Positions 1,534 to 61,311 of a stretch of DNA of 64,000 nt are shown here, one piece after another. The notes below the pieces were generated by a model. The model did no database searches. It had not been told where the DNA came from and saw only the letters and a list, made by a program, of their open reading frames with translations. The stretch spans positions 1 to 64,000 of the forward strand of contig JAMPGX010000013.1 of assembly GCA_023663725.1 (NCBI GenBank), in the 5' to 3' direction. The stretch comes from a bacterium. GTDB taxonomy: Bacteria > Bacillota > Clostridia > Lachnospirales > Lachnospiraceae. Position numbers and translations under genes: made by a program. Each line of letters starts with the position of its first letter. Positions within the stretch are counted from its first letter, which is position 1.

Positions 1534-1893
1534 ATGAGTGATTTCAAAATTGGTTCCGCGGAGGCCCGCTTTGCGGATATGATCTGGGAGAATGAGCCGG
1601 TATCCTCCGGCCAGATGGCGAAGCTGGGAGCCGAAGCGTTTCAGTGGAAGAAGACCACGTCCTTCACGGTGTTGAAGCGGCTCTGCGACAGGGGCATTTT
1701 TCAGAATCAGGGCGGCACTGTGACATCCCTGATCTCGCGGGAGGAGTTCTATGCCAGACACTCCGAGCAGTATGTGGAAGAGACCTTTGGGGGTTCTCTG
1801 CCCGCGTTCCTGGCGGCATTTGGGAGCAGAAAGAAGCTGTCAGACAACGAGATCGACGAGCTGAAAAAAGTGATAGAAGGCATGAGGGGGTGA
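1534..1893 (+). CDS. BlaI/MecI/CopY-family transcriptional repressor (first copy)
   Basis: A 119-residue protein of normal BlaI length. The N-terminal winged helix (residues about 5-75, with WKKTTSFTVLKRLCDRG as the recognition region) binds the palindromic operators seen 150-190 bases upstream. The C-terminal helices serve dimerisation and in this family contain the site cut when the cognate BlaR1 protease is activated. Start ATG follows GAGGAG by 7 bases. It is followed after 4 bases by the M56 sensor gene, the classic blaI-blaR1 order. Identification is confident; the controlled targets beyond its own operon are unknown. Confidence 0.9.
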   Translation: MSDFKIGSAEARFADMIWENEPVSSGQMAKLGAEAFQWKKTTSFTVLKRLCDRGIFQNQGGTVTSLISREEFYARHSEQYVEETFGGSLPAFLAAFGSRKKLSDNEIDELKKVIEGMRG

Positions 1894-42369: not shown

Positions 42370-42386
42370 ACAATATAATGTATAGA

Positions 42387-42420
42387 CAATTGCGGAATAT
42401 ACAATATGCACAATGACACT
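42387..42420 (+). repeat. Reduced copy (D) of the dispersed palindromic element
   Basis: CAATTG at 42387-42392 matches the left end of the 176-nt element and is joined directly to its right arm (GGAATATACAATATGCACAA, then TGACACT). About 140 internal bases are missing. It ends 25 bases before the start of the response regulator gene. Confidence 0.7.
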
Positions 42421-42444
42421 TGCAAAGCAACCGGGGAGAGAACT

Positions 42445-43119
42445 ATGTACAGGATACTGATCGTGGAGGATGACGAGGGAATAGCGGACTCCCTGTCCCG
42501 GCAGATCGCGAGCTGGGATATGGAGCCCTGTTGCGTGTCGGACTTTCATAAGGTGATGCAGGAATTCGCGGCCTTTGATCCGCAACTGGTGTTGCTGGAC
42601 ATCATGCTGCCCTTCTACAACGGATACTATTGGTGCAGTGAGATCCGCCGCGTGTCCAAGGTGCCCATTATCTTTCTCTCCTCCGCCTCCGACAACATGA
42701 ATATCGTCATGGCCATGAATATGGGCGGGGACGACTTTATCGCCAAGCCCTTTGACATGGCGGTGCTGATCTCCAAGATGCAGGCCATTCTGCGCCGTAC
42801 CTATGATTTTGGAGGCACATTGCCGGTGCTGGAGCACAGGGGAGCGCTGCTGAACACCGGAGACAATACCCTGACCTATCAGGGGGAGCAGATTCCCCTG
42901 AGCAAGAATGAGTACCGTATCCTGCTGACCCTGCTGGAGAGCAAGGGCCAGGTGGTGAGCAGGGAGCGTCTGATGGAGAAGCTGTGGGAGACCGATAATT
43001 TCGTGGACGACAACACACTGACGGTCAACGTGAACCGCCTGCGCAGGAAGCTGGAGGCGGCGGGACTTGCGGACTTCATTGTCACAAAGTTCGGAGTGGG
43101 GTATCTGGTCTGCGGCTGA
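42445..43119 (+). CDS. OmpR-family response regulator of the Bce-type module (BceR-like)
   Basis: 224 residues from ATG 42445 (GGGGAGAG 6 bases upstream). Receiver with VEDDEG, phospho-acceptor Asp in LVLLDIMLPFYNGYY, FLSSASD and FIAKPF; winged helix from about 130 (LSKNEYRILLTLLESKGQVV, DDNTLTVNVNRLRRKL). The LPFYNGYYW loop is typical of BceR regulators paired with short intramembrane-sensing kinases. First gene of RR-HK-ATPase-permease. Confidence 0.92.
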   Translation: MYRILIVEDDEGIADSLSRQIASWDMEPCCVSDFHKVMQEFAAFDPQLVLLDIMLPFYNGYYWCSEIRRVSKVPIIFLSSASDNMNIVMAMNMGGDDFIAKPFDMAVLISKMQAILRRTYDFGGTLPVLEHRGALLNTGDNTLTYQGEQIPLSKNEYRILLTLLESKGQVVSRERLMEKLWETDNFVDDNTLTVNVNRLRRKLEAAGLADFIVTKFGVGYLVCG

Positions 43120-47493: not shown

Positions 47494-47565
47494 GGCTGAT
47501 TGGTCAAGCGGTTAAGACGCCGCCCTCTCACGGCGGAAACAGGGGTTCGATTCCCCTATCAGCTG
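47494..47565 (+). tRNA. tRNA-Glu (CTC), first copy
   Basis: 72 bases. Acceptor GGCTGAT pairs with ATCAGCT (one G-T). D arm, anticodon stem CCGCC/GGCGG with loop CTCTCAC giving anticodon CTC, and T arm GGGGT-TCGATTC-CCCTA-like all fold. CCA is not encoded. Confidence 0.93.
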
Positions 47566-47597: not shown

Positions 47598-47669
47598 GGC
47601 TGATTGGTCAAGCGGTTAAGACGCCGCCCTCTCACGGCGGAAACAGGGGTTCGATTCCCCTATCAGCTG
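47598..47669 (+). tRNA. tRNA-Glu (CTC), second identical copy
   Basis: Identical in sequence to the tRNA at 47494, 32 bases downstream; the spacers differ, so this is a tandem duplication. A terminator follows. Confidence 0.93.
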
Positions 47670-47732: not shown

Positions 47733-47807
47733 GTCTAAATATCACAGAGCATTTTTCGTCAAGATAAAAACTTTGCGCGGCTGTATGCTGTACTTGTAAC
47801 TTGTAGG

Positions 47808-47983
47808 CAATTGCAAAACTGTTTATTGCCAGTACCGAATTGTGCATATTGTATATTCCATAAGCAATGCCCTTTCGAACCGTCGGTACTTAGATGCCGT
47901 ATTTTGGCATCTTATGTACCGCTACGGTGAGAACGGAGCGAGAGCGTGCTTGCGTTGGAATATACAATATACACAATGACACT
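47808..47983 (+). repeat. 176-nt dispersed palindromic element, full copy (B)
   Basis: Nearly 90% identical to the element at 60457-60632 and exactly the same length. Arms ATTGTGCATATTGTATATTC (left) and the complement ending CACAAT (right) pair over 22 positions with one mismatch; further inner stems CGGTAC/GTACCG and ACCGT/ACGGT lead to the apical hairpin AGATGCC-N7-GGCATCT. It lies 58 bases before the AraC gene start at 48042. No protein is encoded and no target-site duplication is evident. Confidence 0.8.
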
Positions 47984-48041
47984 GACATAGAAACCAAGCT
48001 TAGCAATCGTCTATCACAACTCAAGACAGGAGGTGGAGGAA

Positions 48042-49535
48042 GTGAAGCGCTATGATACGATCTTTTCTTCCCTGGAGTTGATCGAGGAGAGAATCCGAGA
48101 GAGACTCACAGTGGAAAACCTGGCGGGCAGCGCACATTTTTCCAAATATCACTACCAGAGGCTCTTTCGCGAGGCGGTGGGAGAGAGCGTGATGAGATAT
48201 GTGGCCGGACGCAAGGTGGCTCTGGCGGCTCAGGAGCTGGTCGAGACAGATGCCTCTGTGCTGGAGATCGCCCTGAGATACGGGTATGACTCCCACGAGG
48301 GCTTCACCCGCAGCTTTCGGACGCATATGGGCGTGACTCCCGCAGAGTACCGGAAGTATCATTCCTCCATAGGCCTCCCACAGACGCGAAAGGAGAGAGG
48401 AAGTATGGGAGCAAAAATGAAGGTTTCCAAGAACACAGACGAGATTATTCGGGAGTTGAACGGGCTGATCGTCCAGATTCGGGAGACAGCGGCTTTTACC
48501 CGAAGGAATCAGGGAGCTTTAGGTTTGGAGCGGTACGGGGAATTCTGGACTACCGTGGCGGGCAGGGCGGAGGCTGCGGCGGACGCACTGGCGGAGATGC
48601 TGGAGCGCGTCACAGCCATTGTCCGGCGACCCGACGAGATATCCGCCCGCTTTATGATCATCAAGGCCATTGAGGACGCCACATTCCGGCTTCAGCTAAC
48701 CGCGTTCCAGGTCAGACTCACCGTGGCGAGGGCTATGCTGGAGCACCGCATGGTCTTTGAGCCCATATGTGAACGGTATGACGCTCTGGCCCGCAATGCC
48801 GGAATGCGGACAGAGCGGATCGCCGCCTTTTTGAGTGAGCTGGCACAGCTCATCTTCCGAGATATGAGGGAGAATGCTGGGCAGTGTCTGCGAAGAGCCG
48901 CAGAGAGCGGCAGGGCGGCAGCGGAAAAGCTCTCCGGTGATCCGGCGCTGCCCTACGGCTATATCGCGCAGGCGGTGGACGGACTTGCGCAGGAGTTGGC
49001 CGACCTGCCCCCAGAGGAGGCGAAGGTGAGCTGTCTGGAGGACTTCCGTATCAGGCTGGATATCATCGAAACCGCCGCAGATTTGGACGGACTGCGTACG
49101 CCGAAGCACAGAGCGCTGCTGGAGTGCATAGGCGATTTTCGGGTCCGACTCGACGAGGCAGTGGACTTTTTCAGGAATCTTCCGACAAACGTGGCGGATA
49201 CTGTGCAGGAGACGGGGGCGATGGGGCGCACGGCCGCCAAAGCGCGCGAGGATATGGTTTTTCAGGGCAGTATCCTGCTCTTTTATCTGAGAGGCGAGAT
49301 GCAGAAAATGGGACTACATTTGGATATGGAGCGGAGAACGGCGCTGGAGGAGATCTGCGGCCGGATGGAGATGACGCTCGGACAGAAGGCGCCGGACGCG
49401 GAGAGCCAGGCAGATGACATTGCGCAGGGCCTGAGGGCAATCGAGCGCGAACTGGCGCAGCAGGCACAGGAGCTGGGAGAGTGCGGAACGGCGATAGCTT
49501 ATATCGCAAAAGAGATCGGCAATATGTCAAAATAG
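48042..49535 (+). CDS. AraC-family protein with long helical C-terminal region
   Basis: 497 residues from the GTG at 48042, which has GGAGGTGGAGG upstream; a GTG at 48033 overlaps the ribosome binding site. Residues 1-105 are an AraC helix-turn-helix pair at the N-terminus (LTVENLAGSAHFSKYHYQRL, VLEIALRYGYDSHEGFTRSF, ending GVTPAEYRKY). Residues 130-497 are almost entirely amphipathic helix with Arg/Glu/Ala heptads (AAADALAEMLERVTAIVRR, ISARFMIIKAIEDATFRLQL), like a methyl-accepting or methylation-type helical bundle, and no enzyme motif. A helical effector domain this long is unusual for AraC proteins. Confidence 0.8.
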   Translation: MKRYDTIFSSLELIEERIRERLTVENLAGSAHFSKYHYQRLFREAVGESVMRYVAGRKVALAAQELVETDASVLEIALRYGYDSHEGFTRSFRTHMGVTPAEYRKYHSSIGLPQTRKERGSMGAKMKVSKNTDEIIRELNGLIVQIRETAAFTRRNQGALGLERYGEFWTTVAGRAEAAADALAEMLERVTAIVRRPDEISARFMIIKAIEDATFRLQLTAFQVRLTVARAMLEHRMVFEPICERYDALARNAGMRTERIAAFLSELAQLIFRDMRENAGQCLRRAAESGRAAAEKLSGDPALPYGYIAQAVDGLAQELADLPPEEAKVSCLEDFRIRLDIIETAADLDGLRTPKHRALLECIGDFRVRLDEAVDFFRNLPTNVADTVQETGAMGRTAAKAREDMVFQGSILLFYLRGEMQKMGLHLDMERRTALEEICGRMEMTLGQKAPDAESQADDIAQGLRAIERELAQQAQELGECGTAIAYIAKEIGNMSK

Positions 49536-60322: not shown

Positions 60323-60456
60323 TGAGAGACAGCTCCTTAGCATTTCCCTGCTGTAACATTTTACTTTCTTTTCCCCAAAATATCTGGTATGATAAAAACA
60401 GCATTTAAAAACGGATTCCGATCATACGTTTCTGGCAATACTTATATATTGGCAAA

Positions 60457-60632
60457 CAATTGTAGCACTATCTATTGCCAGTACCGAATTGTGCATATGG
60501 TATATTCCATAAGCAATGCCCTTTCGAACCGTCGGTACTTAGATGCTGTTCTTTAGCATCTTATGTACCGCTACGGTGAGAACGGAGCGAAAGCGTGCTT
60601 GCGTTGGAATATACCATGTACACAATGACACT
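60457..60632 (+). repeat. 176-nt dispersed palindromic element, full copy (C)
   Basis: Same length and order as the copy at 47808-47983. Where the sequences differ, pairing is often kept: ATATGGTATATTCCA pairs with TGGAATATACCAT (copy B has T-A there), and the apical stem AGATGCT/AGCATCT replaces AGATGCC/GGCATCT. It lies 61 bases before the NUDIX gene start. The rest of the 370-base gap (60323-60693) shows no other feature. Confidence 0.8.
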
Positions 60633-60693
60633 AGCAAAGCATCTAAATTTTGCAAATGTCCATAATAGCATGGAAAAGAGAGGGGACATACCA

Positions 60694-61311
60694 ATGAACA
60701 GGGTAAAGCAGATCAAAAAGCAGACGGACAACCGCTTCCTGAACCTCTATGAGTTCGAGGCGGAGCATCGGGACGGCGTGACCACACCCTACTTTGTGGC
60801 TTCCCGTGCCAGGAGTCAGGAGGAGCTGAAGGCGCTGTGCCACGATAAACGCTCGGATGGTGTGATCATCTACGCCGTCTACGGGGAGCAGAAAGATAAG
60901 GTGGTGCTGATTCGCCAGTTCCGTTATCCGATCAACGATTATATCTACGAATTCCCCGCCGGACTCGTGGAGGACGGGGAAGACATGTTTGAGGCGGGAG
61001 TGAGAGAGATCTATGAGGAGACAGGACTTACCTTTACTCCCAGGAAGGTGGACGACGCTTACGCCAAGCCCTACTATACGACAGTTGGCATGACGGACGA
61101 GTGCTGCGGCACCGTGTACGGCTACTGCACAGGCGTTCCCAGCAACAGCCATCAGGAGGACTCGGAGGATATTCAGATCGTGCTGGCGGACCGAGAGGAA
61201 TGCAAACGAATTCTGCGGGAGGAGAATGTGTCGATCATGTGCGCATATATGCTGATGCACTTTATTCACAGCAGGGAGGAGGACCCGCTGGCTTTTACGG
61301 AGGAGATATAG
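60694..61311 (+). CDS. NUDIX hydrolase, ADP-ribose pyrophosphatase-like
   Basis: 205 residues from ATG 60694 (GAGGGGA 9 bases upstream; the frame is open upstream through the repeat, without a ribosome binding site). The Nudix box is complete: GLVEDGEDMFEAGVREI then YEETGL, preceded by QFRYPINDYIYEFPAG, the pattern of ADP-ribose/nucleoside-diphosphate-sugar hydrolases. It should split ADP-ribose to AMP and ribose 5-phosphate. The next gene starts 38 bases later on the same strand. Confidence 0.9.
   Translation: MNRVKQIKKQTDNRFLNLYEFEAEHRDGVTTPYFVASRARSQEELKALCHDKRSDGVIIYAVYGEQKDKVVLIRQFRYPINDYIYEFPAGLVEDGEDMFEAGVREIYEETGLTFTPRKVDDAYAKPYYTTVGMTDECCGTVYGYCTGVPSNSHQEDSEDIQIVLADREECKRILREENVSIMCAYMLMHFIHSREEDPLAFTEEI

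Follow-up and report, generated by a model that had tools for sequence, protein, structure and literature searches.

Bacterial MITEs are short, non-coding sequences with terminal inverted repeats common to a transposase gene, target duplications and many intergenic copies. The elements analysed here resemble them in each of these respects, but their core also lies in MITEs with unrelated ends and outlasts the adjacent intergenic DNA in three of five orthologues. The bcr1–bcr18 repeats of the Bacillus cereus group include MITE-like members (bcr1–bcr3) and members with conserved secondary structure (bcr10 and bcr18), and about half of the copies are transcribed, often within UTRs, according to the portions of the published account used here (PMC3446304). 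Compared by description, the bcr repeats in those portions belong to one species group, whereas the present core was found in 13 sampled genera and on several carriers (PMC3446304). The GTAG/CGTC REPs are likewise palindromic and mostly intergenic, prefer head-to-head dimers, which are frequent, and are in some cases nested in longer palindromes; however, in the part of the source drawn on here they are 20–40 bp long and have an unpaired tag, whereas the core is ~110 nt long, has a GNRA side hairpin and carries no such tag (PMC3733652).

Among insertion sequences, the IS1182 family is the closest. A transposase in the genome of the present strain is related to the NCBIfam IS1182 model, and the ends of its element resemble those of the MITE, but its score against this equivalog is 78 bits, under the cut-off of 270, and the enzyme is therefore called 'IS1182-like' only and is no certified IS1182 member. 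The transposon part of the elements is ordinary, and their core matches nothing in Rfam 15. On balance, we consider it probable that they are non-autonomous MITEs that are moved in trans and carry a selected core, probably acting at the RNA level, within arms that are rewritten by DNA copying.

The MITE family in the window and its genome

The window, i.e. the whole stretch of 64,000 nucleotides that was analysed, contains four related stretches, which are two full MITEs, one hybrid and one remnant. Their parts and the genes on their 3' sides are as follows.

47804..48013, + strand: full 210-bp MITE, consisting of 47808–47983 plus both ends (from end repeats, length and family alignment)
47804..47820, + strand: left terminal inverted repeat TAGGCAATTGCAAAACT, differing from the family end at 2 positions
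47997..48013, − strand: right terminal inverted repeat TAGACGATTGCTAAGCT, differing from the family end at 3 positions
47853..47963, + strand: conserved structured core of the first MITE (match to covariance model R1, 113.8 bits)
47938..47945, + strand: P4 mini-hairpin GC-GAGA-GC with a GNRA tetraloop (read from the sequence; loop statistics of core copies)
60453..60662, + strand: second full 210-bp MITE, with 6 and 4 mismatches in its degenerate ends
60502..60612, + strand: core of the second MITE, placed by offset as in the first copy and by end-to-end alignment; no separate model match among the 13 candidates scored per genome
1395..1502, + strand: hybrid with no core, its left end from the 210-bp MITE and its right end from the related 143-bp MITE (judged by eye against the 143-bp elements L070, L071, L073 and L077)
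42383..42432, + strand: deletion remnant in which 11 nt of the left end adjoin the right half; right end repeat missing
1534..1893, + strand: penicillinase-repressor family gene (BlaI-like), 3' of the hybrid (Pfam Penicillinase_R)
42445..43119, + strand: response regulator gene, 3' of the remnant (Pfam; the ORF opens at 42406, start at 42445 picked by eye)
48033..49535, + strand: AraC-type HTH regulator gene, 3' of the first MITE (Pfam)
60694..61311, + strand: NUDIX hydrolase gene, 3' of the second MITE (Pfam; start at 60694 picked by eye, the ORF as listed opening at 60595, inside the second MITE)

The earlier note had described a 176-nt element that folds end to end and is present in two full copies. 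Both stretches (47808–47983 and 60457–60632) exist and are 92.6% identical, with folding energies of −68.5 and −68.8 kcal/mol (z-scores of −7.67 and −6.94, respectively); they are far stabler than shuffled sequences, none of the 200 shuffles being as good. The compensated pairs pointed out in them (T-A to G-C in the closing arm, and AGATGCC/GGCATCT to AGATGCT/AGCATCT) are present in the sequence, and Pfam agrees with the identities proposed for the four downstream genes. The length of 176 nt proved too short: when 30 genome copies were aligned with their flanks, similarity extended to terminal inverted repeats, TAGACAATTGCGAAACT and its complement, and the true unit is 210 bp, from which the 17-bp terminal inverted repeats had been cut off. 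The two shorter stretches were located correctly but read differently. That at 1399–1496, taken as a diverged copy, is related to the others but is a hybrid of two MITEs, hence the other bases in its closing stem, and that at 42387–42420, thought to be a shortened copy keeping both ends, is a deletion remnant. No target duplication was seen at either full MITE of the window. Two tandem tRNA genes with equal Rfam scores (47494–47565 and 47598–47669) lie just 5' of the first MITE.

A similarity search of the window's own genome gave 64 match rows from 40 of the 119 candidates scored, some of these rows being reverse-strand matches to the same palindrome. In total, 71 copies or pieces were located in the stretches fetched, 65 of which match over >150 nt. 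Both ends were recognisable in 46 of the 71 (no more than 6 mismatches in 17 per end), and 18 of these two-ended copies are bordered by target duplications of 10–14 bp, a few with one mismatch (the count allows, in effect, up to one). When left and right flanks of different copies were paired, the mean number of such duplications was 0.015 and the maximum was 1 in 200 trials.

The IS1182-like transposase (485 aa) is encoded between the ends TAGGTAATTGCGAAACA and TAGGCGTTTGCGAAACG of a 1755-bp element, which was pieced together from two contigs by an exact 55-nt overlap. The likeness of this element to the MITEs is confined to the end repeats. Against Pfam, the protein scores over the cut-off for DUF772 and below that for DDE_Tnp_1. 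No clear target duplication was found at the borders of this autonomous element. The matching ends of the many copies, their target-site duplications and the ends that they have in common with an autonomous element bear out the MITE-like nature that had been suggested as one possibility, and it is well supported that the window elements are MITEs with ends like those of the IS1182-like transposon. The transposase would act in trans at TAGACAATTGCGAAACT ends, duplicating 10–14 bp of target, and is presumably what moves the MITEs; the two halves of each MITE pair to form one long hairpin.

Other repeats were encountered in the same material. A second MITE of 143 bp has similar ends but another centre (L070 2681–2823, L071 1395–1537, L072 1317–1459, L073 2835–2977 and L077 5922–6064), and direct repeats of 10–11 bp border four of these five printed copies, L072 being without them. 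In L073 (2500–2822), another long palindrome is seemingly inserted in the P3 hairpin of a core, with a possible TA duplication. A repeat containing GGGGCTGTGAAAAAAGTCCCC, probably another insertion sequence, lies at or near many contig edges of genome G000 (C22, C20, C5, C17, C31 and C44).

Fold, distribution and carriers of the core

The core combines a long helix with a side hairpin that has a GNRA tetraloop. The helix contains a CU bulge and a U.U mismatch, and its loop is GUAYUUU-like and 7 nt in length. The core is positioned at the tip of unrelated palindromes. Its CGGUAC/GUACCG stem varies by genus, reading CCCUAC/GUAGGG, CGUUAC/GUAACG, GGGUUC/GAACCC or CAGUAC/GUACUG. A covariance model built from 12 seeds recovered 109 core copies at 94 loci. 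In the alignment of these copies, which was fitted to the structure and thus favours it, 89.9% of the cells are paired and 36 of the 38 pairs show a two-sided change in some copy. The covariation score was reached by none of 500 shuffles, and sliding the partner strand reduced pairing to 28–46%. Relative to a tree-based null of our own design (20 simulated alignments), 19 of the 38 pairs scored above all 119,900 null pairs, as did none of the 5,957 other pairs. The earlier note had proposed a search for covariation across Lachnospiraceae genomes, and by shuffles and tree-based null alike it is strong; such covariation beyond phylogeny is what a structured RNA should have, although arm copying could yield part of it.

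The unpaired parts are also conserved. A GNRA sequence was found in 103 of 106 tetraloops, with the third base always A or G, and three of the 109 copies have no tetraloop at this place. The main loop is mostly GUAYUUU-like in a set that kept only cores with GNRA nearby, which was used for both P3 stems and main loops and in which loop counts are biased; the GNRA figure was counted separately.

When relatives were searched with the 176-nt query, matches were found in 19 of 61 genomes, including its own. They often covered the middle part only, which we read as the same centre within differing outer arms. A pattern scan of public genomes yielded at least 116 stretches. Among the matches listed in that scan, 57 of 80 titles name Lachnospiraceae or a genus that we take to be a member; the others are Clostridium, Clostridiales, Firmicutes or Bacillota (16) and Gastranaerophilales or Bacteroides (7). 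Metagenome-assembled NALB records with the last two titles (L140, L155, L164 and others) carry the element, and their titles may be wrong. In an order-wide sample of 295 genomes, the core was detected in 30, all among the 48 genomes of the host family, which is Lachnospiraceae as judged from record titles, and spanning 13 genera. The model search found it in none of the 247 genomes of the order outside this family and did not find it in 18 of the 48 family members; these absences are soft, as 13 candidates per genome were scored with strict filters (likewise 13 in the search of relatives), and the five genomes for which 150 candidates were scored contain 12 to 38 model matches each.

At the gathering score, Rfam 15 identified only the two tRNAs in the window and nothing on the element. 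Five loci were searched at E ≤ 1: nothing overlapped the element in L001, L014 and L069, and below-threshold miRNA matches that overlap element variants in L073 and L074 were taken as chance. Phage records gave two weak partial matches, and the plasmid collection and viral contigs gave no match to the element. A search of the literature for the letters of the core returned, among the matches listed, seemingly unrelated primer or probe sequences, and no report of the core turned up in our literature searches.

The carriers of the core are diverse. IS1182-type ends (no more than 3 mismatches in 12) flank 25 of 101 core copies on both sides, the remaining 76 being without them; no copy qualified when the flanks were reversed. 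These 101 are 107 copies less 6 that lie too near a contig end. In genome G316, the 20 copies fetched divide, by eye, into 12 within a MITE whose ends are different, GGGGCTGTAAAAAATC, and 8 whose arms are copy-specific; the ends of this MITE resemble the GGGGCTGTGAAAAAAGTCCCC repeat of G000. Further copies sit inside other palindromes, and in G006 (L305, 3931–4381) the core is within a mostly intergenic repeat of ~450 bp. Of the 30 genomes with the core, only G000 and G282 contain an IS1182-like transposase at E ≤ 1e-20, which counts against our preferred explanation. A conserved structured core common to unrelated carriers in Lachnospiraceae is well supported. Because it is more widely spread than the MITE, the core is probably the older of the two, and it would travel through the family in several unrelated palindromes.

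Probable selection on the core and probable copying of the arms

Two genomes of different species, G061 and G098, have five orthologous elements in the four regions compared. In three of the five, the core and inner arms are 93–100% conserved in 40-nt windows, against 23–60% in the adjacent intergenic DNA, although in one of the three the contrast is present on one side only; in the other two, conservation of the flanks comes close to that of the core. As the core outlasts adjacent intergenic DNA in three of five orthologues, selection on the core is suggested. It would most likely act on a folded single-strand RNA bound by a putative protein.

The arms follow another pattern. Three orthologous elements located 5' of one common gene (G399, G282 and G331) have identical cores but differ in 7 of 35 arm pairs. 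Of these 7, 6 keep Watson-Crick pairing throughout the trio and one is a mismatch; there are no wobble pairs. By eye, the coding sequence there has diverged by no more than a few percent, which makes stepwise compensation via intermediates unlikely; these changes favour, and are more simply explained by, the copying of one arm onto the other. Correction of quasipalindromes by template switching occurs in Escherichia coli. In the present elements, template switching within the hairpin would probably keep the arms complementary beyond what selection alone would do. With such correction at the DNA level, arm covariation alone is no proof of RNA function.

Selection acting on an RNA helix would be expected to favour G.U pairs. 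In P3, 63 distinct stems contain 358 Watson-Crick pairs, 3 G.U, 3 A.C and 12 other combinations, and the whole 109-copy alignment, in which P2 is badly aligned, contains 104 G.U and 82 A.C. G.U is thus as rare as A.C in P3 and nearly equal to it overall, which is evidence against the RNA level. The arms in the window's own genome contain 98 G.U versus 13 A.C, most of which come from a few fixed positions; P3 counts of this genome were left out, as two hairpin types are mixed there. Considered together, the paired changes appear to be partly a DNA process, whereas the unpaired motifs and the conservation between orthologues speak for a selected core, for which a putative RNA-level function is plausible.

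A broader version of this reading, to which we give somewhat less than an even chance, makes the core a family-wide structured nucleic acid, probably RNA, that rides unrelated MITEs and palindromes, is kept once it has settled and has a putative protein partner, its stems being rewritten while its unpaired motifs stay fixed.

The strongest alternative, though an unlikely one, is a plain inverted-repeat mobile element, in which template switching alone produced the covariation and recent spread gives only the appearance of conservation. It would account for the two-sided arm changes without intermediates in close orthologues, for the equal G.U and A.C counts in P3 and for the target duplications and even gene orientation. 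However, arm copying would not keep unpaired features such as the GNRA tetraloop, the GUAYUUU-like loop and the CU/UU bulge; nearly all stem letters differ between the cores of different genera, so the spread is not recent; and the survival of three of the five orthologous cores amid diverging intergenic DNA is against it as well. The earlier note had set random orientation with target duplications, as signs of a plain element, against covariation across genomes. The outcome is mixed: both signs were seen, yet covariation is strong.

That the core is an independent mobile hairpin with its own putative recombinase, the MITEs being carriers that it entered or that captured it, seems improbable to us, although the unrelated ends of the carriers and the events upstream of rapZ are in its favour. 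An element is present upstream of this gene at 2 of 28 loci (L372 and L364, in two genera). A conserved rapZ leader was rejected, since 26 of the 28 loci are without the element, and the two occurrences are read as separate gains. Compared with G098, the rapZ locus of G061 appears to have gained a clean 183 bp, which comprise the element with its arms and lack a target duplication; a route of gain besides IS1182-type insertion may therefore exist. Among 79 genomes of the genus of G061 (ten candidates each), the only full-length match was the element itself, the next longest (G346) covering about 148 of 196 nt at 77%. On the other hand, no associated enzyme was found, the rapZ gain could instead be a loss in G098, though the element is at so few rapZ loci, and selection on old orthologous copies would be unexpected for a purely selfish unit. 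The terminator-like outer arms in G316 had also raised the idea of insertion into pre-existing hairpin loops, which is unsupported at the one empty site observed, where the arms arrived with the insert.

Orientation to genes, paired cores and meaning of the element

Some copies of the core have a neighbouring copy within 500 bp. Of the 30 such pairs, 25 have the order minus-then-plus and none the order plus-then-minus; the other five comprise 3 minus-minus and 2 plus-plus pairs. This count covers the 109 copies and three of the five more deeply scored genomes, the remaining two (G316 and G325) showing no pair within 500 bp; one pair is present in two sets, L218 and G270 C26 having equal coordinates, and an insertion that splits a single element accounts for one of the minus-minus pairs. 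The doublets (e.g. L163, L183, L221 and L283) have mostly divergent cores with their 5' sides facing, variable gaps and different arms. Although this arrangement and the nesting in longer palindromes recall the published REP families, it is very improbable that a Y1/RAYT transposase moves the core as a REP-like element of single-stranded DNA. PF01797 (Y1) gave no match in the window's genome, where 7 candidates were scored and 65 copies of >150 nt are present. Of the 30 genomes in which the core was detected, 16 contain this domain, as do 11 of the 18 core-negative ones, and a Y1/RAYT mobiliser was rejected because the domain does not track the core. The RAYT/Y1 association of GTAG REPs is thus not seen here, nor is there an unpaired conserved tag: CGT pairs with ACG, and the C that follows is in a stem that varies between genera.

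The earlier note had also suggested a structured leader RNA, on the grounds that the element always lies upstream of genes in the same orientation. This is true of all four stretches in the window, each in sense before a gene, and, as judged by eye, 7 of 14 copies in G061 are in sense just 5' of a start codon, which shows that a skew within one genome can occur. It does not extend to the whole genome, where the gene on the 3' side of the 71 copies or pieces is on the same strand in 35 cases, on the opposite strand in 28 and undetermined in 8. Across many genomes (94 loci, 107 of the 109 covariance-model matches), 31 copies are sense, 30 antisense, 10 convergent and 5 divergent, and the remaining 31 are cut by locus ends or overlap an ORF; these counts are approximate, being based on simple longest-ORF gene calls, and the palindromic copies themselves contain ORFs. 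A cis-acting leader RNA (riboswitch or attenuator) loses its main support because sense and antisense copies are about equal in number, was rejected on this ground and is highly unlikely, the more so as one of the three conserved orthologues is antisense to both neighbours, the downstream genes met in passing are diverse and the two rapZ elements appear to be separate gains.

If the core works as RNA, Lachnospiraceae would possess a widespread structured element outside Rfam 15, an RNA-like fold that hitchhikes on unrelated types of transposon. A caution comes from the orthologous trio: paired changes in long hairpins can stem from arm copying at the DNA level, and strong covariation by itself is therefore no proof of RNA function.
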